Positions 19,487 to 34,613 of a stretch of DNA of 37,002 nucleotides are shown here, piece by piece. The position numbers were made by a program, and so were the translations under genes. The stretch spans positions 1 to 37,002 of the forward strand of contig DAOURK010000031.1 in NCBI GenBank assembly GCA_030625085.1, in the 5' to 3' direction. Under the pieces are notes generated by a model. It was not told the DNA's origin, searched no databases, and saw only the letters and a list, made by a program, of their open reading frames with translations. The stretch is from Pseudomonadota bacterium (lineage in GTDB: Bacteria; SZUA-182; DTGQ01). How positions within the stretch are numbered: position 1 is the stretch's first letter; each line of letters begins with the position of its first letter.

Positions 19487-19525
19487 AAAAAGCCACCTGA
19501 GAATAATTCCGGGTGGCTTTTTTTT
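19487..19525 (+). terminator. rho-independent terminator after HU
   Basis: AAAAAGCCACC (19487-19497) pairs with GGTGGCTTTTT (19512-19522), followed by further Ts. It is 21 bp after the HU stop. The A-run on the left would also allow it to work in the other direction. Confidence 0.9.
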
Positions 19526-19530
19526 AATCT

Positions 19531-21903
19531 ATGATTACTTTAAACGATAACGACAGCTATTTAACCTTTAAAGGCTTTCTAAAGCTTCCTACCCTCTTCT
19601 TTATTGGGATGTTTATATTTCTCTTCGGAGATGTTACATCTATCTCTTATATTACCGAAGCCTCACAAATCTCAGATGCAAATGAATACAGAGAGCAAAG
19701 CTATAAATCCTTCCAAAAAGGGGCCTTTGAGCAGGCTATCATAAATGGGATGCTAGCGGCGCGACTGTATGGAGAACAGACAAAGTACGAAGAGCAAGTT
19801 GAGGTGCTTATTCATTTGGGACGGGCCCATCAATCCCTTGGACAATACAAAAAATCCCTGAGGGGCCTTGAGACTGCATTAACCCTGGCTACAAAAAAAA
19901 ATAACCAAATACAAATAGCATCTATTTTAGAACATCTTGGTATTGCATACCTCTATCTGGGGCCAAAGGAAAAAGCAAAAAATTATCTTGATGAAGGACT
20001 TGCCATAGCCAAAAAGAAAAATAATCTAAACCTCATGGCTTCCATCTTAAATACCTTAGGGAATATGTATGCTTATTGGAATTTATACTCTGAGGCCATC
20101 GATGCCTACAAAGAAAGTATCGCTTTGGCCAAAAAAACCAAAATCCATGTGCTGGCTGCACTTCCCTTAGCAAATGCCGCAGCAGCGTCATTACAAAACG
20201 ACAATTTTAAGGAAGCTGAAGTATTCCTCAATTCGGCCTATGAAGAATATTGCAAAATGCATGATTCTCATAAAAAGGCTTATGGATTAATTAACCTGGC
20301 GCAAACCTGTCGTCGCATGAGCACTCGTATGACCCAAAACAAACCGGAGTCTCCTCAAAAAATACAGCTTCTGGCATACAAAGCGCTTAATAAAGCGGCT
20401 GTCATCGCCGAGGCCATTGATGACTATCGCGCCAGTTCATATGCCTTTGGGTATTTGGGCCAGATTTACGAAAATAAAGGCCGATATCAAGAAACGCTCC
20501 AACTTACACGAAAGGCTCTCTTTGCTGCACAACAAATAAGGGCGCCTGAATCTCTTTACCTTTGGCAATGGCAAACCGGCCGCCTATTTAAAGAGCAAGA
20601 AAAAATAGATGAGGCTATTTCAGCCTATAGGAATGCCATTCATACTCTTCAATCATTTCGCCTGGAAGCATACACCGGCTGCAGCACTTGTAATAAAGCA
20701 TCATTCCAAAAATCTGTAAAGCCGGTATTTTTTGAACTGGCAGATTTGCTTCTTCAACGCGCCGCCTCCTTGCTAAAAAAAGAAGGTGGTCAAGCATGTC
20801 TCCTTGAAGCACGTGAAACAATAGAATTATTGAAGGCTGCCGAATTAAGGGATTACTTTCATGACCCTTGTCTGGATGCTTATCAATCCAAAATGAGCTG
20901 TCTCGATAATCTTTCTTCCGATACAGCCATAGTTTATTTGATACCCCTCCCCAACCGGCTGGAATTACTGTTGAGTCTACCGGATGGGATAAAAAGATTC
21001 CCCATACTGGTCGGCTCAGATACTTTACGGGAAGAGGTAAAATTATTTCGTATAAAATTGGAAAAAAGAACCACCAGAGAATACCTGCTTCATGCTCAAA
21101 GACTCTATGAGTGGCTGATTTATCCCCTCGAAAATGATCTTACCTTGTCTAAGATTAAAACCTTAGTTTTTGTGCCTGATGGTGCACTGCTTACTATCCC
21201 TATGGCCGCCCTTCACGACGGGCGCCAGTTTCTTATCAATAAATTCGCTATAGCCGTTACCCAGGGATTAAATCTCGTTGATCCTCATCCAATGAAAAAA
21301 AAAGATACAAAGATACTCTTAGCCGGACTAACCGAATCTGTGCAAGGATTTCCCGCCCTGATTAATGTATCTTCCGAACTTCAAGCCATTCAAAAAATTT
21401 TTAAAGGCACAGTATTAAAAAATGAGGACTTTCTTATCTCCCATATAAAAAAGGAATTAAAGGAAACACCATATTCGATAGTACATATTGCCTCTCATGG
21501 AGAATTTAAGGGGGAGTCAGCTCAGACTTACATTTTGACTTGGGACGGCAAGCTATCTATGGATCAAATTGAGGGTTTCATGAAGCTCACCCGCTTTCGT
21601 CAAAACCCTGTAGAGTTGCTCACCTTAAGCGCTTGTCAAACGGCTGCCGGGGATGATAGGGCCGCTTTGGGTTTAGCCGGTGTAGCCATGAAGGCCGGAG
21701 CCAGAAGCGCCTTGGCCACTCTATGGTTCATAAATGATCGAGCCTCTTCTGAATTGGTTGGAGAGTTTTACCGGCAACTTCAGCAAGAGTCCATTTCAAA
21801 GGCCAAAGCCCTGCAAATGGCCCAGGTAAAATTGCTCAGTAGTAACCGCTATCAACATCCCTGCTATTGGTCTGCTTTCCTTATGCTGGGCAATTGGTTA
21901 TAA
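19531..21903 (+). CDS. exported TPR-CHAT domain protein
   Basis: A 790-residue protein with an N-terminal hydrophobic segment (about residues 13-34) that should act as a signal peptide or anchor. A long TPR array spans about 50-420 (for example HLGRAHQSLGQYKKSLRGLE and NTLGNMYAYWNLYSEAIDAY). The CHAT domain, a caspase-like peptidase fold, occupies about 510-790. Its catalytic dyad is intact: H656 in VHIASHGEF and C702 in LSACQTA, followed by GLAGVAMKAGARSALATLW. Substrate and activating signal are unknown. The ATG lies only a few bases after the T-run of the HU terminator, with no ribosome-binding site, so the true start may be elsewhere. The CHASE2-cyclase gene begins 8 bp after the stop, and a DUF928 gene follows. 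Confidence 0.88.
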   Translation: MITLNDNDSYLTFKGFLKLPTLFFIGMFIFLFGDVTSISYITEASQISDANEYREQSYKSFQKGAFEQAIINGMLAARLYGEQTKYEEQVEVLIHLGRAHQSLGQYKKSLRGLETALTLATKKNNQIQIASILEHLGIAYLYLGPKEKAKNYLDEGLAIAKKKNNLNLMASILNTLGNMYAYWNLYSEAIDAYKESIALAKKTKIHVLAALPLANAAAASLQNDNFKEAEVFLNSAYEEYCKMHDSHKKAYGLINLAQTCRRMSTRMTQNKPESPQKIQLLAYKALNKAAVIAEAIDDYRASSYAFGYLGQIYENKGRYQETLQLTRKALFAAQQIRAPESLYLWQWQTGRLFKEQEKIDEAISAYRNAIHTLQSFRLEAYTGCSTCNKASFQKSVKPVFFELADLLLQRAASLLKKEGGQACLLEARETIELLKAAELRDYFHDPCLDAYQSKMSCLDNLSSDTAIVYLIPLPNRLELLLSLPDGIKRFPILVGSDTLREEVKLFRIKLEKRTTREYLLHAQRLYEWLIYPLENDLTLSKIKTLVFVPDGALLTIPMAALHDGRQFLINKFAIAVTQGLNLVDPHPMKKKDTKILLAGLTESVQGFPALINVSSELQAIQKIFKGTVLKNEDFLISHIKKELKETPYSIVHIASHGEFKGESAQTYILTWDGKLSMDQIEGFMKLTRFRQNPVELLTLSACQTAAGDDRAALGLAGVAMKAGARSALATLWFINDRASSELVGEFYRQLQQESISKAKALQMAQVKLLSSNRYQHPCYWSAFLMLGNWL

Positions 21904-21911
21904 GCTATTAT

Positions 21912-23891
21912 ATGAAAAATCCTGCTATGAACTTGAAATCAAAAACGAAACAATCTCCAGTGGTGGTAAGTGTCCTGATCAGTGCCGGGATTTGCCTCAT
22001 TATTATAGCCTTACGTACAATAAGAGGTCTTGAATTCCTCGAACTTGCCGCTTACGATCACTACCTTTGTCGGCAGCCAAAGGTTTGTTCACCAAATCCC
22101 CCTGTTGCTCTAATCACTATTTCAGAGGCAGACATTCAAAAGCAAGGGTGCTGGCCCTTACCAGACGGCACCTTAGCTGAATTATTAAAAATCCTTCTTA
22201 ATTATCAACCCCGGGCCATCGGGTTAGATATTTACCGGGATATCCCGGTCCCCCCTGGAAGCGAACAACTGGCTGGCATCTTTTCCAGGCATGATAATAT
22301 TGTGACAGTGAAAAAAATTGGAGATGAAACTTCCCTTGGTGTCTCATCACCCTATATGGTAAACAGTACGAATCTGGTAGGGTTCAATGATATTCTGGTT
22401 GACCTGGGTGGTGTTGTCCGCCGTGGCCTGCTTTTTCTCGATGACGGGGAGACAAGCTTTTATTCTTTTGCCCTGCTCCTGGCAATGCTTTACCTGGAGG
22501 AGGAAGATATCCTGCCCCAGGCCGGTCTATCTAATCCTCAACATTTACGACTGGGAAAAACAACCTTTGTGCCATTCAAATCTCATGACGGCGGATATAT
22601 CAAGGCCGATGATAGAGGATATCAATTCTTGCTGGACTATAAAAACAAGCTGGGAGCGTTTCAAAATTTTTCTCTGACTCATGTATTATCCGGACAAATC
22701 AGCCCGAATCCGTTTCAGAATAAAATTGTCATTATTGGCGTTACAGCAGAAAGCTTAAAGGATTTTTTCTTTACCCCTTTGAGCAAAAACTCGGAGTCAA
22801 TCAACAAAATGTCCGGGGCCGAACTTCATGCCCATATAATCAGTCAAATAATCCGTTCCGCCCTTGAAGGTGGAAAGCATAAAAAATCAATGAATGAGTG
22901 GTATGAATGGGGATGGATATTGATGTGGAGCCTGATAGGAGGGTTAATGGTTTTATGGAGGCGGTCTTTTTTACATTTTTTACTGTTGACTATAGCCGGT
23001 TTACTTGCCCTAGGATTTATAAGCTACTTCATCTTCAATTTAGGTTGGTGGGTCCCCCTGGTGCCGCCTGCTTTGGCCCTCTTGATATCCGCCAGTCTGG
23101 TAACTGCCCATATGTCATATCAGGAAAAGGTGCAAAGGGCCATTCTGATGCAACTTTTTTCCAAGCATGTTTCCAAAAATGTAGCCGAAAGTATTTGGCA
23201 ACAAAGAGATCAATTTATGGATGGCGGCCGGCCTCGTACACAAAAATTAGTAGCTACTGTTTTATTTACTGATTTAAAAGGATTTACCACCATATCAGAA
23301 AACCTTAGCCCTCAGGCTTTAATGGATTGGTTAAATAATTATATGGAAGCCATGGCTCAGATAGTTATCGATCATGGAGGTGTGATTAATAAATACATAG
23401 GTGACGCTGTTATGGCTGTCTTTGGAATACCTCTACCCAGAGTGGACGAGGCCGAAATAAGGCGCGATGCTGAAAATGCCGTCAGTTGCGCCCTGAGCAT
23501 GGCCGAAGAAATCAAAGGGTTGAACAGCCTTTGGCAAAAACAAAATCTGCCGACTGCCAAAATGCGCATAGGGATTTTTACCGGCCCACTAGTAGCAGGA
23601 TGTATTGGTAGTTCCCATCGTATGGAATACACAGTGATTGGGGATACAGTCAATATTGCCTCAAGGCTGGAAGGATTCAATAAGGATTCGGTTGACCCCT
23701 CTTTAACGAATCATGCCTGCCGTATTCTGATTGGGGGAAAAACTTTAGACCTCCTTGGCCGACAGTTTCAAACTGAAATGGTAGGCAAAGTAAACTTAAA
23801 AGGTAAGGATAAAAAGATAACTATTTACCGGGTAACCGGTCGGGTAGATCAAAGTAATGATAATTCCAATAATACAAATTTTCAGATTTAA
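21912..23891 (+). CDS. CHASE2-sensor class III adenylate cyclase
   Basis: A 659-residue membrane sensor cyclase. An N-terminal helix (about 14-34) leads into an extracytoplasmic CHASE2 domain (about 35-320; motifs PPVALITISEADIQ and AIGLDIYRD). Three transmembrane helices follow (about 330-425), then a cytoplasmic class III cyclase domain (about 450-600). The two metal aspartates are D454 (LFTDLKGFT) and D498 (KYIGDAVMAVFG). Lysine K494 and the later VIGDTVN are those of adenylate rather than guanylate cyclases, and VNIASRLE supplies the transition-state asparagine and arginine. All active-site residues are present, so cAMP production is likely. The chosen ATG is 8 bp after the CHAT gene; an in-frame TTG at 21867 overlaps that gene. 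Neither has a clear ribosome-binding site. Confidence 0.9.
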   Translation: MKNPAMNLKSKTKQSPVVVSVLISAGICLIIIALRTIRGLEFLELAAYDHYLCRQPKVCSPNPPVALITISEADIQKQGCWPLPDGTLAELLKILLNYQPRAIGLDIYRDIPVPPGSEQLAGIFSRHDNIVTVKKIGDETSLGVSSPYMVNSTNLVGFNDILVDLGGVVRRGLLFLDDGETSFYSFALLLAMLYLEEEDILPQAGLSNPQHLRLGKTTFVPFKSHDGGYIKADDRGYQFLLDYKNKLGAFQNFSLTHVLSGQISPNPFQNKIVIIGVTAESLKDFFFTPLSKNSESINKMSGAELHAHIISQIIRSALEGGKHKKSMNEWYEWGWILMWSLIGGLMVLWRRSFLHFLLLTIAGLLALGFISYFIFNLGWWVPLVPPALALLISASLVTAHMSYQEKVQRAILMQLFSKHVSKNVAESIWQQRDQFMDGGRPRTQKLVATVLFTDLKGFTTISENLSPQALMDWLNNYMEAMAQIVIDHGGVINKYIGDAVMAVFGIPLPRVDEAEIRRDAENAVSCALSMAEEIKGLNSLWQKQNLPTAKMRIGIFTGPLVAGCIGSSHRMEYTVIGDTVNIASRLEGFNKDSVDPSLTNHACRILIGGKTLDLLGRQFQTEMVGKVNLKGKDKKITIYRVTGRVDQSNDNSNNTNFQI

Positions 23892-23919
23892 AATTTCATA
23901 CAATAATTTTTAATACCTG

Positions 23920-23975
23920 TAGCCCTGGGCTTTAGCCTTGCTAAAATAGCTAATGCCCGCGCTACTACTGTCTGA
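23920..23975. repeat. dispersed inverted repeat (GGGCTTTAGCC type), copy 1
   Basis: A left arm reading AGCCCTGGGCTTTAGCCTTG (23921-23940) and a degenerate right arm AGCTAATGCCCGCGCTA (23948-23964), followed by CTACTGTCTGAA. The right side aligns with the 31700-31735 element, including the trailing CTACTATTGCCTGAA, so both belong to one family. It lies between the cyclase and the DUF928 gene. Confidence 0.6.
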
Positions 23976-24027
23976 ATATCGATTATAGAATTATTTTTCT
24001 AAAAACCTACAAAGGTGGGGGTATACT

Positions 24028-24783
24028 ATGAAGGAATACTCTAATCCGGCAATATGGATACTCATCGCAAGCTTTACTTTGCTGATTTCCTTATCCGCAT
24101 TTGCTTCTGACAGACGAGACAAAAAACGAAAAGGGAAACCGTCTGACCAAAGTAAACACCAATCTATTTCCCCTATGTTCATATATAAACCGCCAAAAAG
24201 GGGCAAGCCAGGAAATCGTGTGGGGGGAGGCACCCGTGGGCAAGGGGATAATATCTCTCCCTTGGCTGCCTTGGTACCGGATCATACCGGATTGACTACT
24301 AAAAATCAACCCTCCCTTTACTGGTTTTTAGCAAATTCGACTACCAATCGAATTGAATTTACCATAAGCAATAAACAGAAGATAAACCCTCTTTTGGAGA
24401 TAAGCCTTACCAATCCTGACAGACAGGGTATACAATGTATACATTTATCAGACTATGGTCTGAAGCTCTCATCGGGAATAGAGTATCAATGGTTTGTGGC
24501 TTTAGTGCCTGATCCTGATTCAAGGTCAAAAGATATTGTAGCCGGAGGGACAATCAAACACATTAAGCCTCCAAAAACGCTCACCCAAAGGCTAACTAAG
24601 GCAGGCATGATGAAAATCCCGGGGATCTATGCTGATGAGGGGATCTGGTATGACGCCTTATCAGCCATTTGTGAATTAATAAAAACTCATCCCAATGATA
24701 AAAACTTACGCTTACAGCGAGCTTCACTCTTGCAGCAGGTAGGATTGCCGGAGGTTTCCCCTTACGTGGAAAAAAGACCATAA
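24028..24783 (+). CDS. secreted DUF928 family protein
   Basis: A 251-residue exported protein. The signal peptide ends at AFA|S (cleavage after residue 26). The mature part matches DUF928: YKPPKRGKPGNRVGGGTRG, then LAALVPDHTGLTTKNQPSLYWFL, and SGIEYQWFVALVPDPDSRSKDI. No enzymatic motif is visible. DUF928 proteins are best known from cyanobacteria, where I recall them near CHASE2 and CHAT genes. AGGTGGGGG precedes the ATG. The position directly after the CHAT and CHASE2-cyclase genes suggests a shared function, perhaps as a periplasmic partner of the CHASE2 sensor. The function itself is unknown. Confidence 0.85.
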   Translation: MKEYSNPAIWILIASFTLLISLSAFASDRRDKKRKGKPSDQSKHQSISPMFIYKPPKRGKPGNRVGGGTRGQGDNISPLAALVPDHTGLTTKNQPSLYWFLANSTTNRIEFTISNKQKINPLLEISLTNPDRQGIQCIHLSDYGLKLSSGIEYQWFVALVPDPDSRSKDIVAGGTIKHIKPPKTLTQRLTKAGMMKIPGIYADEGIWYDALSAICELIKTHPNDKNLRLQRASLLQQVGLPEVSPYVEKRP

Positions 24784-29747: not shown

Positions 29748-30882
29748 AGATCAAAAATATATGAGACAAGTCTTTAAACTGGCCGAACTTGGGAAAGGGA
29801 AGACCTCGCCTAATCCTCTGGTAGGAGCTCTTATTGTCAAAAATGATATCATTGTAGGGCAGGGTTATCATGAAAAATACGGGGCTCCACATGCGGAAAT
29901 TAAAGCCTTGAAGCAAGCACGTCAAAAGGCCGAAGGAGCCACTCTTTACATCAATCTGGAGCCATGCAGACATAAGGGGCAGACCCCCCCCTGTACCACT
30001 GAAATCATTCATGCCGGCATCAAAAGGGTGGTTATGGCCACCAAGGACCCAAACCCTCTGGTAAACGGGCAGGGGATTCAAGACTTAAAGGAACAAGGAC
30101 TTGAAGTAAAAACCGGTGTATTGGAGAAAGCCGCCAAAAAATTAAATGAATACTTTTTTAAATATATTCGTACAGGCACACCCTTTGTTATTCTAAAAAT
30201 GGGTATGAGCCTTGATGGTAAAATGGCCACTAAAACAGGGGACTCCCGTTGGATAACCAGCGAATTACTCCGAGGTTTTGTTCACCAATTACGCAATGAA
30301 ACTGATGCCGTCCTGGTGGGTATTGGCACGGTAATTCGGGATAACCCCCGTTTGACAACTCGATTAAAAAAGGGCCGGGGCCGGGACCCAAAACGAATTA
30401 TTGTAGATAGTTTGCTTCGGACTCCGCTGCAAGCGAGAATTTTTACCCAGCAATCGGATGCGGGAAATATTATTATTACCACCACTAATGCGCCGGCAGA
30501 ACGTCTTAAAAAGCTGGAAAAAAACGGGGCTCAAGTAATTTTTATTAAAAGCATAGGAAAAAATATGGTAGATTTAAAGGCCATGTTAGTTGAACTCGGA
30601 AAATTACAGATCACCTCCCTCTTGATTGAAGGGGGCCCAGGCATCAATGGTTCGGCCATCCAGGCTGGAATTATTGATAAAGTTATTATGTTCATTGCCC
30701 CAAAAATTATTGGCGGTGTCGCAGCTCCTAGCGCTATTGGGGGTGAGGGGGTAGCCCGAGTTGATGATGCAATCAAACTATACGACATTAAAACCAAACG
30801 ATTCGGCAATGATTTAATGATAGAAGGATATATTGACGGTTCCACGCCTGCCTGTGTTTGGGCTCCTTTTGGATGTCAATAA
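29740..30882 (+). CDS. ribD: bifunctional riboflavin deaminase-reductase RibD
   Basis: A 380-residue RibD catalyses the deamination and reduction of the pyrimidine intermediate of riboflavin synthesis. The N-terminal deaminase carries the zinc site H51-A-E53 and C76/C85 (EPCRHKGQTPPC). The C-terminal reductase (about 150-370) begins with FVILKMGMSLDGKMATKTGDS and includes SLLIEGGPGINGS. GAGGGA lies about 8 nt before the ATG, which overlaps the end of ftsY by eight bases. The upstream frame extension into ftsY is not used. It is the first of five riboflavin-linked genes in a row; ribE follows after 2 bp. Confidence 0.96.
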   Translation: MDKDQKYMRQVFKLAELGKGKTSPNPLVGALIVKNDIIVGQGYHEKYGAPHAEIKALKQARQKAEGATLYINLEPCRHKGQTPPCTTEIIHAGIKRVVMATKDPNPLVNGQGIQDLKEQGLEVKTGVLEKAAKKLNEYFFKYIRTGTPFVILKMGMSLDGKMATKTGDSRWITSELLRGFVHQLRNETDAVLVGIGTVIRDNPRLTTRLKKGRGRDPKRIIVDSLLRTPLQARIFTQQSDAGNIIITTTNAPAERLKKLEKNGAQVIFIKSIGKNMVDLKAMLVELGKLQITSLLIEGGPGINGSAIQAGIIDKVIMFIAPKIIGGVAAPSAIGGEGVARVDDAIKLYDIKTKRFGNDLMIEGYIDGSTPACVWAPFGCQ

Positions 30883-30884
30883 TC

Positions 30885-31568
30885 ATGTTTACCGGTTTAG
30901 TAAATGAAGTAGGTAATATTATCAGTATACAAAAAAAAGGAGAAATTTCTCGCCTTAGTATTCGAATTACAGCAGCCAACGACCAGGACCGGATCGGAGA
31001 CAGTATTTGTATAAATGGTGTCTGTTTGACAGTGACTGCCTTAAGCGGTCATATCTTACAATTTGATCTTTCTTTGGAAACAACGACCACCACTACACTA
31101 GGAAAATTAAAGGCCTCTGACCGAGTAAACATAGAGAGGGCCTTGCGCCTCAGTGACCGATTAGGGGGACATCTTCTTTCGGGTCACATAGACGGCATAG
31201 GATATATTCGAGAACGAAAAAAAAATGATAAGCATTATTTACTGGGGATAGAATTCCCTCAAAAAATTTCCTGCTATTTAGTTGAAAAAGGATCAATCGG
31301 CATAGATGGAGTTAGCCTGACTATTGCTGATCTTGAAAAAAACCTCCTTTGGGTATCTATTATCCCCCATACATCTGAAGTTACCACATTAAAGGAGAAA
31401 AAAAGGGGCCATCAGGTAAATGTGGAAGCAGATCTTTTAGCTAAATACATTTATCGCCTGCTTGCTGATCATCCTGCGATTCAATTGAGCGAATCAAAAA
31501 CTCACTCTTCTCTTAAGGCACCTGATTTTGGGAAAGAATTATTAGCCAAACATGGATTTTTATCATAA
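30885..31568 (+). CDS. ribE: riboflavin synthase alpha chain
   Basis: A 227-residue riboflavin synthase, which dismutates two 6,7-dimethyl-8-ribityllumazine molecules to riboflavin. The two lumazine-binding repeats are visible: MFTGLVNEVGNI with SICINGVCLTV in the first and DRLGGHLLSGHIDGIGYI with GSIGIDGVSLTIAD in the second. The ATG giving MFTGLV is the family's usual N-terminus, so the nine codons upstream are not coding. The start is 2 bp after the ribD stop with no strong ribosome-binding site, suggesting coupling. It ends 225 bp before ribBA, after which lie a small palindrome and a dispersed repeat. Confidence 0.95.
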   Translation: MFTGLVNEVGNIISIQKKGEISRLSIRITAANDQDRIGDSICINGVCLTVTALSGHILQFDLSLETTTTTTLGKLKASDRVNIERALRLSDRLGGHLLSGHIDGIGYIRERKKNDKHYLLGIEFPQKISCYLVEKGSIGIDGVSLTIADLEKNLLWVSIIPHTSEVTTLKEKKRGHQVNVEADLLAKYIYRLLADHPAIQLSESKTHSSLKAPDFGKELLAKHGFLS

Positions 31569-31572
31569 AACC

Positions 31573-31720
31573 TTCCCCATGGGGAATAACAAATTGAAAA
31601 ATTAACAAAATTACGTTATTATAGATTTTCAGATAATAAATTCCATACACGCACTTTTTAAACTATAGCGCAGGGCTTTAGCTCTGTAGTTTATTTCAGC
31701 AGGGCTAAAGCCCTGCGCTA
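31573..31720. repeat. intergenic palindrome and dispersed inverted repeat (copy 2)
   Basis: TTCCCCATGGGGAA (31573-31586) is a perfect palindrome just after ribE. A long inverted repeat follows: the arm at 31666-31686 (CGCAGGGCTTTAGCTCTG at its core) pairs with the arm at 31700-31720 (CAGGGCTAAAGCCCTGCGC) at 20 of 21 positions around a 13-bp loop. The sequence continues CTACTATTGCCTGAA, shared with the element at 23920. No FMN riboswitch consensus is seen in this leader. Confidence 0.75.
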
Positions 31721-31793
31721 CTATTGCCTGAAAAATGATTGGGAAATTATCTTTTTGAAAAACTATAGATAATACCAGAAAGGGAGATGTCGC

Positions 31794-33005
31794 ATGTGTT
31801 TTAGCACCATTCCGGAAGCATTGGAAGATTTTCAGCAGGGCAAGATGCTCATTGTTATTGACGATGAAGACCGTGAAAATGAGGGCGACTTAACTATAGC
31901 CGCGGAAAAAACTACGCCTGAAATTATTAATTTTATGGCCCAATATGGACGCGGCTTGATCTGCTTGCCAATGGAAGGCAAACGTCTTGATGAACTTAAA
32001 ATTCCCATGATGGTTCAAGAAAATACCTCTTCTTTTGAGACGGCTTTTACCATTACCATTGAAGCAAAACATAAAACAACCACCGGCATTAGCGCTGCAG
32101 ATCGAGCAGTTACTATTTTAACAGCTATTGATCCCAAAACAAAACCTGAAGACATGGCTCGTCCGGGCCATATGTTTCCACTTCGAGGCAAAGAGGGAGG
32201 AGTGTTAACTCGAACCGGACAAACAGAAGCAGCCATTGATTTGGCACGATTGGCCGGATTATACCCGGCAGGCGTTATCTGCGAAATAATGAATCCAGAC
32301 GGCACTATGGCCCGATTGCCTTCTTTAATAAAATTTTCAAAAAAACATAACATCAAACTGGTTACTATCAAAGATCTTATTGGATATCGACTTCGCAATG
32401 AAAAACTCGTTTCAAGGGCTGCTACATTTTCTCTTCCCACCAAGTATGGTATATTTCAATCTATTGCCTATGAAAGTAAAACCGATAAACAAGTCCATAT
32501 TGCTTTAACTATGGGAAAATGGAATGAGGAAGAAGAAATCCCTGTTCGTGTACATTCGGAATGTTTAACCGGTGATGCCTTAGGTTCGGTGCGCTGTGAT
32601 TGCGGGGCTCAATTAGAAAAAGCTATGGAAATAATCGCTCAACGAGGAAAAGGGATTATCCTCTATCTTCATCAGGAAGGCCGCGGCATCGGCCTTTTAA
32701 ATAAATTGCGGGCTTATGAACTTCAGGATCAGGGAAGAGATACAGTAGAGGCCAACGAAGACTTGGGATTTAAAGCGGATTTACGTGAATATGGAACAGG
32801 CGCCCAGGTCCTGGTAGATTTAGGGGTAAAAAAAATCCAATTATTAACCAACAATCCCCGTAAAATTATAGGCTTAGAAGGATACGGCCTTCAGATAGTC
32901 AACCGAATAGCCCTTGAAATTAAAGCTTCCAAAAGTAATGTTCATTACTTAAAAACAAAAAAAAAGAAACTTGGCCATTTACTCACTATTGAGGAGAAAA
33001 AATGA
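31794..33005 (+). CDS. ribBA: bifunctional DHBP synthase/GTP cyclohydrolase II RibBA
   Basis: A 403-residue fusion supplying both precursors of riboflavin. The N-terminal 3,4-dihydroxy-2-butanone-4-phosphate synthase (1-200) has [12 protein letters not shown] and [16 protein letters not shown] with the [10 protein letters not shown] motif. The C-terminal GTP cyclohydrolase II (205-400) has the zinc cysteines C257, C268 and C270 ([20 protein letters not shown]) and [18 protein letters not shown]. Both halves look active. GGGAG precedes the ATG. The stop overlaps the ribH start (ATGA). Confidence 0.96.
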
Positions 33006-33481
33006 TGCCTAAAATCTTAGAAGGAGATCTGATTGCTCATGATCTTCACTTCGGTATAATTCTAAGTCGTTTTAATGATTTTATTACTAACCCTTTATTG
33101 GCAGGGGCTCTGGATGCCTTATACCGTCACGGAGCAACCGAAGACCATATTGAAATTATTAAAGTGCCCGGGGCCTTTGAGATCCCCTATGTTGCTAAAA
33201 AAATTATCCAAAACAAAAAATACGATTCAGTTCTTTGTCTGGGGGCTTTAATTCGGGGTGATACTCCCCATTTCGAATATATAAGCGCTGAAGTTACCAA
33301 AGGAATAGCTCAAGTATCTCTTGATAGCGGAGTTCCTGTCATCTATGGGGTTATCACCACGGACAATATTGAACAGGCCATAGAACGAGCAGGCACCAAA
33401 GCAGGCAATAAAGGCTGGCTGGCGGCTGTTTCAGCCATAGAAATGGCTCGCCTGTATAAAAAAATTGGCAAGAAAAAATAA
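33002..33481 (+). CDS. ribH: 6,7-dimethyl-8-ribityllumazine synthase
   Basis: A 159-residue lumazine synthase, the penultimate enzyme of riboflavin synthesis and normally an icosahedral or pentameric shell. Family motifs: [42 protein letters not shown] with the catalytic histidine, and [21 protein letters not shown], then [17 protein letters not shown]. Two ATGs are adjacent (33002 and 33005); GAGGAG fits either. The start overlaps the ribBA stop, so translation is coupled. nusB begins 8 bp after its stop. Confidence 0.96.
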
Positions 33482-33489
33482 AAAAAATT

Positions 33490-33924
33490 ATGGGTAAAAG
33501 GCGATTATCCAGAGAATTCGCTTTACAAATACTTTTTCAGTTGGATATAACGAAAGATCCTCTCCAAAAGGGAATAGATCTGTTTTGGGCCATTCGGGAA
33601 TTTCCTGACGAGATTAAGGAATTTGCGAATTGTTTGGTGGACGGAACCATAAAAAACCTGGTATTTATTGATCAGTGCATCTCATCTTTTGCCACCAATT
33701 GGTCCCTTAGCAGAATGCCCACAGTAGATCGAAATATTTTACGATTTTCAGTGTATGAAATTCTCTTTAAACCGGAAATCCCCGATAAAGTGAGTATTAA
33801 TGAAGCCCTGGAAATCGCTAAAGAATATGGAACCGATGAATCTCCTCCTTTCATTAATGGCATTTTAGATAAAATAAGCAAGGGAAAAACAAAACTGCTT
33901 TCATCTTATTCTCGAAAAAAATGA
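33490..33924 (+). CDS. nusB: transcription antitermination factor NusB
   Basis: A 144-residue all-helical NusB, which binds BoxA RNA with NusE/S10 and promotes antitermination in rRNA operons. Motifs: SREFALQILFQLDIT at the start, ATNWSLSRMPTVDRNILRFSVYEILF, and VSINEALEIAKEYGTDESPPFINGILDKI near the end, all typical. ribH-nusB is a widespread gene order. The stop overlaps the start of the next gene as ATGA. Confidence 0.96.
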   Translation: MGKRRLSREFALQILFQLDITKDPLQKGIDLFWAIREFPDEIKEFANCLVDGTIKNLVFIDQCISSFATNWSLSRMPTVDRNILRFSVYEILFKPEIPDKVSINEALEIAKEYGTDESPPFINGILDKISKGKTKLLSSYSRKK

Positions 33925-34613
33925 AGCATCTCCTCTTTTCAGATGTTCATAGTGATTTAATAGAACGAAAGTTAAGCCAAGATAGTCCCGCCAGATCATA
34001 CCTGATAAGATTGAATGAAGAATGTGAAAGAATGAATCAAATTATTGAAACCATTAGGGCTTTTTCCCACCAGGCTGATAGCGCTTTTGAATATATCCAC
34101 CTCAAAAAATCCATAGAGGATGCTATCTCATTATTTTCTCAACAATTTAAAAAGTATAATATTAATCTAAAAAAAGATATCCCTACTAATCTCCCTCCGA
34201 TTCTTGGGAATAAAACAAAATTGCAGCAGGTCTTTGTCAATCTCATTTCCAATGCGCGTGATGCTTTAAATGCCCAAACGAAAACTCAAGAAAAGCAGAT
34301 CAGCATTCATTGTGAATTGGATGATAAAAACAACAATATTCTGATTCAAGTTAAAGATAATGGAATCGGGATTGATCAAAATATACAATCCCGTATTTTT
34401 GATTCCTTTTTCAGCACCAAGAAGGATAATCAAGGAACAGGGTTAGGGCTTTCTATAGCCAGAACGATCATTGCCGATCATAAGGGTCAAGTAAATTTTT
34501 CCAGCACACCAGGGGAAGGGACATCTTTTATTATTCGGCTTCCCTTTACTGAAAATACTGAATATAAGGTAACCAAAATACAGCACATGAAAGACAAGAT
34601 AGCTTCTTTATAA
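33921..34613 (+). CDS. histidine-kinase-like ATPase lacking the phospho-acceptor helix
   Basis: A 230-residue soluble protein that is almost entirely the ATPase half of a histidine kinase. Residues 25-52 (ARSYLIRLNEECERMNQIIE) resemble the second helix of a HisKA domain. The first helix, with its H-box (H-E-L-x-x-P), is missing; the only early histidines (H3, H10) are not in that context. The HATPase domain is intact: N box around 102-116 (KLQQVFVNLISNARDAL), G1 at 146-150 (DNGIG), F box (FDSFFSTKK) and G2 at 172-178 (GTGLGLS). No sensor or membrane segment is present. It overlaps nusB by four bases (ATGA). It might be a remnant, or a kinase that acts on another protein's phospho-acceptor or directly by protein contact. 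Confidence 0.8.
   Translation: MKHLLFSDVHSDLIERKLSQDSPARSYLIRLNEECERMNQIIETIRAFSHQADSAFEYIHLKKSIEDAISLFSQQFKKYNINLKKDIPTNLPPILGNKTKLQQVFVNLISNARDALNAQTKTQEKQISIHCELDDKNNNILIQVKDNGIGIDQNIQSRIFDSFFSTKKDNQGTGLGLSIARTIIADHKGQVNFSSTPGEGTSFIIRLPFTENTEYKVTKIQHMKDKIASL

Follow-up and report, generated by a model that had tools for sequence, protein, structure and literature searches.

A TPR-CHAT, CHASE2-cyclase and DUF928 gene set linked to two-partner secretion: a possible relay across the cell envelope

The three consecutive genes considered here lie at positions 19531-24783, on the plus strand, of a stretch of 37,002 nucleotides from a Pseudomonadota bacterium (the whole of this stretch is referred to as the window), and they encode a TPR-CHAT protein, a CHASE2-class III adenylate cyclase (CHASE2AC) and a DUF928 protein. 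Several described systems resemble this locus in part. Csx29 of Craspase, which belongs to type III-E CRISPR, has the same TPR-CHAT architecture; however, the window protein carries an N-terminal hydrophobic export segment (residues 15-33) and so does not have the look of a cytosolic protein, and no Cas family was found among the window genes searched in Pfam, some open reading frames (ORFs) of the window and repeat arrays lying outside that search. The cyclase is not paired with an effector gene as in Pycsar systems, its neighbours being the CHAT and DUF928 genes. The components of FhaB/FhaC-type two-partner (type Vb) secretion, TpsA with a TPS/adhes_NPXG domain and a ShlB-type TpsB with POTRA domains, are present in the genome of the window, but here the pair is not linked to the window genes, and the described systems contain no TPR-CHAT, DUF928 or CHASE2 as far as the literature searched shows.

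The CHASE2 cyclases of Sinorhizobium meliloti (NsrA-CyaD1/CyaD2/CyaK) respond through the outer-membrane barrel NsrA, which indicates that signalling from the outer membrane to CHASE2 exists (PMC13001267). The likeness to the reading proposed below lies in a CHASE2-class III cyclase making cyclic AMP (cAMP) and in an event sensed through an outer-membrane β-barrel, whereas in the portion of that paper drawn on here NsrA is a barrel that is not described as a secretion partner, the signal is a plant protein, and CHAT and DUF928 are not mentioned. MtxA of magnetotactic bacteria (4z29) combines an Ig-like domain with a five-helix TPR-like domain, carries a signal peptide, and has a gene for a CHASE2 cyclase downstream of its own gene (PMC4439547). 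MtxA shares with the DUF928 protein this type of fold and this neighbour, but it differs in the lack of detectable sequence similarity and in an extra N-terminal region, and the sections of the paper used here report neither CHAT nor TPS. A pair of CHASE2 and DUF928 genes, the same two families close together, has been noted in Nostoc punctiforme, one of seven cyanobacteria, and tied to WD40 proteins (PMC5587647); CHAT is absent from the text of that paper, and TPS falls outside the passage concerned. No paper connecting CHAT or CHASE2 to two-partner secretion was found in the literature searched; the parts are known, and their combination appears to be undescribed there.

A conserved module of CHAT, CHASE2, DUF928, TpsA and TpsB that extends over at least three bacterial phyla is well supported. 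The initial annotation had proposed a module of the three window genes, and the recurrent neighbourhoods and the trees speak strongly for their belonging together; its extent had been drawn too narrowly, as the module includes a two-partner-secretion pair, which is not visible within the window because that pair is located on another contig of the genome. CHAT, CHASE2, TpsA or TpsB were present within about 8 kb of 67 of the 80 DUF928 loci taken from cyanobacteria and from the group of Nitrospirae WY4.bin7 (the Nitrospirota group). The loci were chosen from match lists with their neighbours unseen, mostly one or two per genome, and therefore the percentages are estimates. Among the 40 cyanobacterial loci 31 have a partner, most commonly CHASE2 (25), followed by CHAT (12), TPS (10) and ShlB (6), and in a control that covers cyanobacterial genomes only, none of 20 random windows from the same genomes holds any partner. 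The 40 Nitrospirota-group loci include 36 with a partner (CHAT 36, ShlB 33, TPS 27, CHASE2 with cyclase 8), and TpsA or TpsB occurs in 34 of the 40. The nearest partner of DUF928 is mostly less than 300 bp away and on the same strand. The commonest order in the Nitrospirota group is TPS-ShlB-CHAT-DUF928, without CHASE2; in Nitrospirae WY4.bin7 (L041) the genes for ShlB, TPS, CHAT, CHASE2AC and DUF928 stand side by side, which matches the CHAT-CHASE2AC-DUF928 order of the window. All five families are found together in one cyanobacterial genome (L107), and complete five-family sets are present on plasmids of Nostoc sp. UHCC 0302 and Planktothrix agardhii; on named cyanobacterial plasmids 13 of 14 DUF928 loci have at least one partner. 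At the level of whole genomes, TPS is present in 51 of the 54 DUF928-carrying genomes of the Nitrospirota group and in 34 of the 192 others (n=246; Fisher p 4e-26, uncorrected for phylogeny).

The genome of the window has one canonical TpsB-TpsA pair, located on contig C58 (TpsB 29952-31694 and TpsA 31713-34322, corresponding to L043 6953-8695 and 8714-11323), and it is this pair that carries the POTRA and TPS/adhes_NPXG domains named above, TPS being the only domain that Pfam recognises in TpsA; no C-terminal toxin domain known to Pfam, such as CdiA of contact-dependent inhibition (CdiA/CdiB/CdiI) would have, was recognised. In this assembly the pair and the window genes are on separate contigs; in WY4.bin7 they are physically linked. 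Within the order to which the window belongs, both DUF928-bearing genomes also hold relatives of CHAT, CHASE2AC, TpsB and TpsA of the same clades, dispersed over contigs; in the second of these genomes (G004) CHAT, CHASE2AC-DUF928-TpsB and TpsA are split over three contigs (C45, C217 and C267). The trees were quick ones with support from the Shimodaira-Hasegawa approximate likelihood-ratio test (SH-aLRT) only. For CHAT, the window joins G004 and WY4.bin7 in a group with a support of 93, which is nested in a starred clade of six rows; in the CHASE2 tree the same three fall within a starred five-row clade; the unlinked TpsB of contig C58 stands in a starred four-row clade together with the cassette-linked TpsB of WY4 and the DUF928-linked TpsB of G004; and the three TpsA proteins are in a six-row group with a support of 85. 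Compared with their counterparts in G004 and WY4, CHAT, CHASE2AC, DUF928 and TpsB are 50-59% identical and TpsA is 37-40% identical, the window CHAT sharing 52% with the WY4.bin7 protein over 770 residues. Near the end of TpsA, a motif of the form C-x-A...SSF-x-[IV]-x-G-R-x-x-L-P is seen in L043 8714-11323, in the window clade and in part of the Nitrospirota set. The pattern was composed after viewing these sequences, and its frequency is no test; judged from sequence, it is a possible candidate for a processing or sorting signal.

The initial annotation had considered the gene set to be mainly cyanobacterial and possibly acquired by transfer. The former is half right: DUF928 is carried by 47 of 146 genomes in the cyanobacterial group, and also by 54 of 246 genomes in the Nitrospirota group. 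Apart from the genome of the window and G004, only three genomes in a domain-wide sample of 386 were found to carry it; all three belong to one other phylum group, taken as cyanobacteria from gene content and named plasmids. In all five trees the cyanobacterial sequences are on one side of a single branch (SH-aLRT 96-100), and the window is nearest to the Nitrospirae metagenome-assembled genome and the genome of its own order; transfer from cyanobacteria is therefore disfavoured by all five family trees. Unrelated donors for the three proteins, which would have spoken against a common module, were not seen in the trees. The window corresponds to contig C187 in a draft genome of 4.94 Mb, and the three genes are flanked by an HU gene and by UPF0182. 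In three genomes of the same family UPF0182 is conserved, mostly with TPR and FtsY genes behind it; CHAT, CHASE2 and DUF928 are not upstream of UPF0182 in the stretches examined from these genomes, and DUF928 is absent from all three. G004, from another family, is the only genome of the order that shares DUF928. This patchy presence in the class indicates gain or repeated loss of the gene set.

Fusion proteins provide further information about the partners of CHAT. In one cyanobacterial protein (L120 2542-6405), whose gene adjoins DUF928, an N-terminal TPS domain is joined to a C-terminal CHAT domain, and on a plasmid of Calothrix sp. 336/3 (L263 7692-11939) a protein of 1415 residues with the architecture POTRA-POTRA_2-TPR-CHAT (its POTRA being of ShlB type) adjoins CHASE2-DUF928. 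These fusions place TPR-CHAT at the secretion apparatus. The output domains attached to CHASE2 are variable: CHASE2 proteins encoded at cyanobacterial DUF928 loci (n=38) carry a cyclase in 14 cases, CHAT in 12, GGDEF in 5 and a kinase in 4. On plasmid pB of Kovacikia minuta (L267 3624-6773) three TIR stretches are combined with CHASE2 next to DUF928, and a TIR gene adjoins CHASE2-DUF928 in Calothrix 336/3. As the output varies and CHASE2 is constant, the shared interaction is probably periplasmic.

Two AlphaFold2 models of DUF928, both made from one four-sequence alignment and hence not independent, consist of a beta-sandwich followed by five helices. Their mean predicted local distance difference test (pLDDT) scores are 63 and 70, with most ten-residue blocks of the core at 72-87 and 78-90. 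The top Foldseek match of both models in the PDB is the C-terminal domain of MtxA (4z29), with E-values of 3e-5 and 5.6e-5.

Our results are consistent with a trans-envelope system built on two-partner secretion, of which the window genes would be the protease, sensor and adaptor arm; we put this reading forward tentatively, at close to an even chance. The exoprotein TpsA would be exported by TpsB, which combines POTRA domains with an outer-membrane barrel. TPR-CHAT, a predicted caspase-like protease in the periplasm, would dock at TpsB/TpsA and either process TpsA or check its export, and DUF928, as a periplasmic adaptor with Ig/FnIII-plus-TPR-like structure, would bind CHASE2 and relay the state of TpsA/TpsB to the inner membrane, where CHASE2 would set the output of the cyclase, cAMP here and other outputs elsewhere. 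The observations behind this reading are the domain content, the intact catalytic motifs, the recurrent linkage, the concordant phylogeny of four of the five families, the fusions and the swapping of outputs on a constant CHASE2; from them we infer that CHAT is an active protease, what it acts on, that DUF928 binds CHASE2 and which way the signal runs. The whole suggests that bacteria use the system to process or monitor a surface-displayed protein. In its broadest form, a hitherto undescribed relay in at least three phyla, in which a type Vb pair is monitored by TPR-CHAT and DUF928 and served by interchangeable CHASE2 outputs (cAMP, cyclic di-GMP, kinase, CHAT, TIR), with MtxA as a distant example of the adaptor class, the proposal is one that we consider quite possible, though not yet probable. 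If it is true, DUF928, a family of unknown function, obtains a testable role, CHAT proteases are connected to an outer-membrane secretion pathway, and there is a physical candidate for the sensing of cell-surface events by CHASE2; if the resemblance to MtxA holds, it also gives a hint at the role of this unexplained magnetosome-island protein.

Several observations weigh against this reading. There is no CHASE2 within 8 kb at 32 of the 40 Nitrospirota-group loci, and about one-fifth of the cyanobacterial DUF928 loci have no nearby partner. In the DUF928 tree the window, WY4 and G004 are mutual nearest neighbours, but the grouping is unsupported (support 0). In cyanobacterial CHAT-CHASE2 fusions (L031 10447-12789 and similar loci) CHAT precedes the first membrane segment; judged from this arrangement it appears to be cytosolic and unfit for one common periplasmic role, and therefore CHAT probably has two roles. 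The TM-scores between DUF928 and MtxA, taken on the target, are modest at 0.58 and 0.44, and DUF928 profiles from 4 and from 51 sequences give no match to MtxA 4z29, so that a link by sequence was rejected and the similarity is structural only. Since the profiles do not connect the two proteins, and folds of the Ig/FnIII and TPR types are widespread, the modelled likeness is regarded as a lead.

The initial annotation had suggested that the periplasmic CHASE2 domain is the direct target of CHAT and DUF928, which would cleave or bind it and thereby set the level of cAMP, in which case the secretion genes would be incidental. On the one hand, the three genes are contiguous in the window and in WY4.bin7, CHASE2 leads the cyanobacterial neighbours of DUF928, CHAT-CHASE2 fusions exist, and the gene of the best structural match, MtxA, also adjoins a CHASE2 cyclase. 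On the other hand, CHASE2 as the target of CHAT is not favoured by the Nitrospirota group, where 28 of the 36 CHAT-DUF928 loci have no CHASE2 nearby and the 32 loci mentioned above stand against 34 with TpsA or TpsB, nor by the fusion of CHAT to TPS and POTRA domains, and we consider such direct action unlikely. If instead CHAT and DUF928 were only maturation factors or chaperones in the biogenesis of TpsA, with the CHASE2 cyclase as an optional regulator without direct contact, then the commonest Nitrospirota-group layout, which lacks CHASE2, would be accounted for, and the C-terminal motif of TpsA could be a processing or sorting signal; but the frequent cyanobacterial DUF928-CHASE2 pairs without TPS nearby and the swapping of CHASE2 outputs would be left unexplained, which makes this a rather improbable account.

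An envelope-stress or cell-death module, with CHAT (joined by TIR in some versions) as the executioner upon damage to the outer membrane or surface and with cAMP as the alarm, would be in keeping with the established role of both domains as effectors of immunity and cell death in bacteria, with the TIR-CHASE2 protein of Kovacikia minuta, with the TIR gene of Calothrix 336/3 and with the frequent location on plasmids in cyanobacteria. The window CHAT, however, bears an export signal, no TIR or nuclease gene adjoins it, and the matches in PADLOC are generic (TPR matches and a weak BovA match, 2.8e-4, for CHAT; PycC matches that are limited to the cyclase domain and come without a paired effector); this account, too, is taken to be rather improbable. 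That exported and membrane proteins merely share genomic islands with no functional link would fit dispersed layouts such as that of G004 and the several loci on plasmids, but it is at odds with an operon-like layout in three phyla, the empty random windows, the concordant trees of four families and the fusions, and its probability is taken to be slight.

All three genes were recognised by Pfam as they had initially been described, with E-values of 9.7e-58 for CHAT (in addition to TPRs), 4.1e-62 for CHASE2, 8.8e-28 for Guanylate_cyc and 1.9e-38 for DUF928 (PF06051; 132.5 bits against a cut-off of 26). The TPR-CHAT protein (19531..21903, +, 790 residues) has an N-terminal hydrophobic export signal or anchor, a TPR region at about residues 92-376 (19804..20658, +; TPR_12, TPR_1 and TPR_MalT) and the CHAT domain (PF12770) at residues 522-788 (21094..21894, +). 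Its predicted dyad had been named correctly: His656 (21496..21498, +) lies within HIASHG and Cys702 (21634..21636, +) within SACQT, and both, as well as H652, are invariant in 59 of 59 CHAT domains. The CHASE2AC gene (21912..23891, +, 659 residues) encodes the predicted periplasmic CHASE2 domain (21993..22946, +) and the class III cyclase domain (23253..23828, +); hydrophobic segments are located N-terminally (residues 16-34) and, beyond the CHASE2 domain, at 356-374 and 381-399. The mechanical ORF begins with TTG at 21867, within the CHAT gene, and ATG at 21912, 8 bp past the CHAT stop, is the most plausible start, from which the residues are numbered. Here too the residues initially named were located, D454 within FTDLKG and K494 and D498 within NKYIGD. 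The class III set is complete, with the metal-binding Asp pair D454/D498, the substrate-specifying K494/T574, which we take to be the pattern of class IIIb adenylate cyclases, and the transition-state residues N581/R585; all 29 cyclase domains compared have D454, D498 and N581. Some homologues carry D/T or E/G in place of K/T, and therefore the substrate may differ between relatives. The nearest solved structure of the cyclase is 3r5g, named CyaB (E-value 4.8e-33). The DUF928 protein (24028..24783, +, 251 residues) has a hydrophobic segment at residues 8-26 and the DUF928 domain at 24223..24759 (+), modelled as a seven-strand beta-sandwich and five helices. Because of the N-terminal hydrophobic segments, export of CHAT (by a cleaved signal or with an anchor) and of DUF928 is a plausible prediction.

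The DUF928 gene begins after a gap of 136 bp from the cyclase stop, and with the 8 bp between the CHAT and CHASE2AC genes this spacing makes a single predicted transcript covering all three genes likely. At the end of the HU gene, directly before CHAT, a terminator-like inverted repeat was seen by eye at window positions 19490-19530 (AAGCCACC...GGTGGCTTTTTTT); it is absent from the list of the automated scan, probably owing to its long loop. Tandem DUF928 duplicates are frequent in the Nitrospirota group (L184, L186, L188, L204, L207, L209 and others). On several cyanobacterial plasmids (L264, L266, L268, L269, L271, L273) DUF1822 is located upstream of or near CHASE2-DUF928, in some cases accompanied by a gene whose annotation is that of a sigma-70 family factor. 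A plasmid of Picosynechococcus sp. PCC 7003 has the order DUF1822-CHASE2-DUF928-CHAT. The genome of the window has one other CHASE2 protein (L026 5877-10887, contig C25); behind it come an SH3-domain protein, an M48 peptidase and a possible outer-membrane barrel, the last matching FadL-type outer-membrane transporters weakly and below the cut-off.

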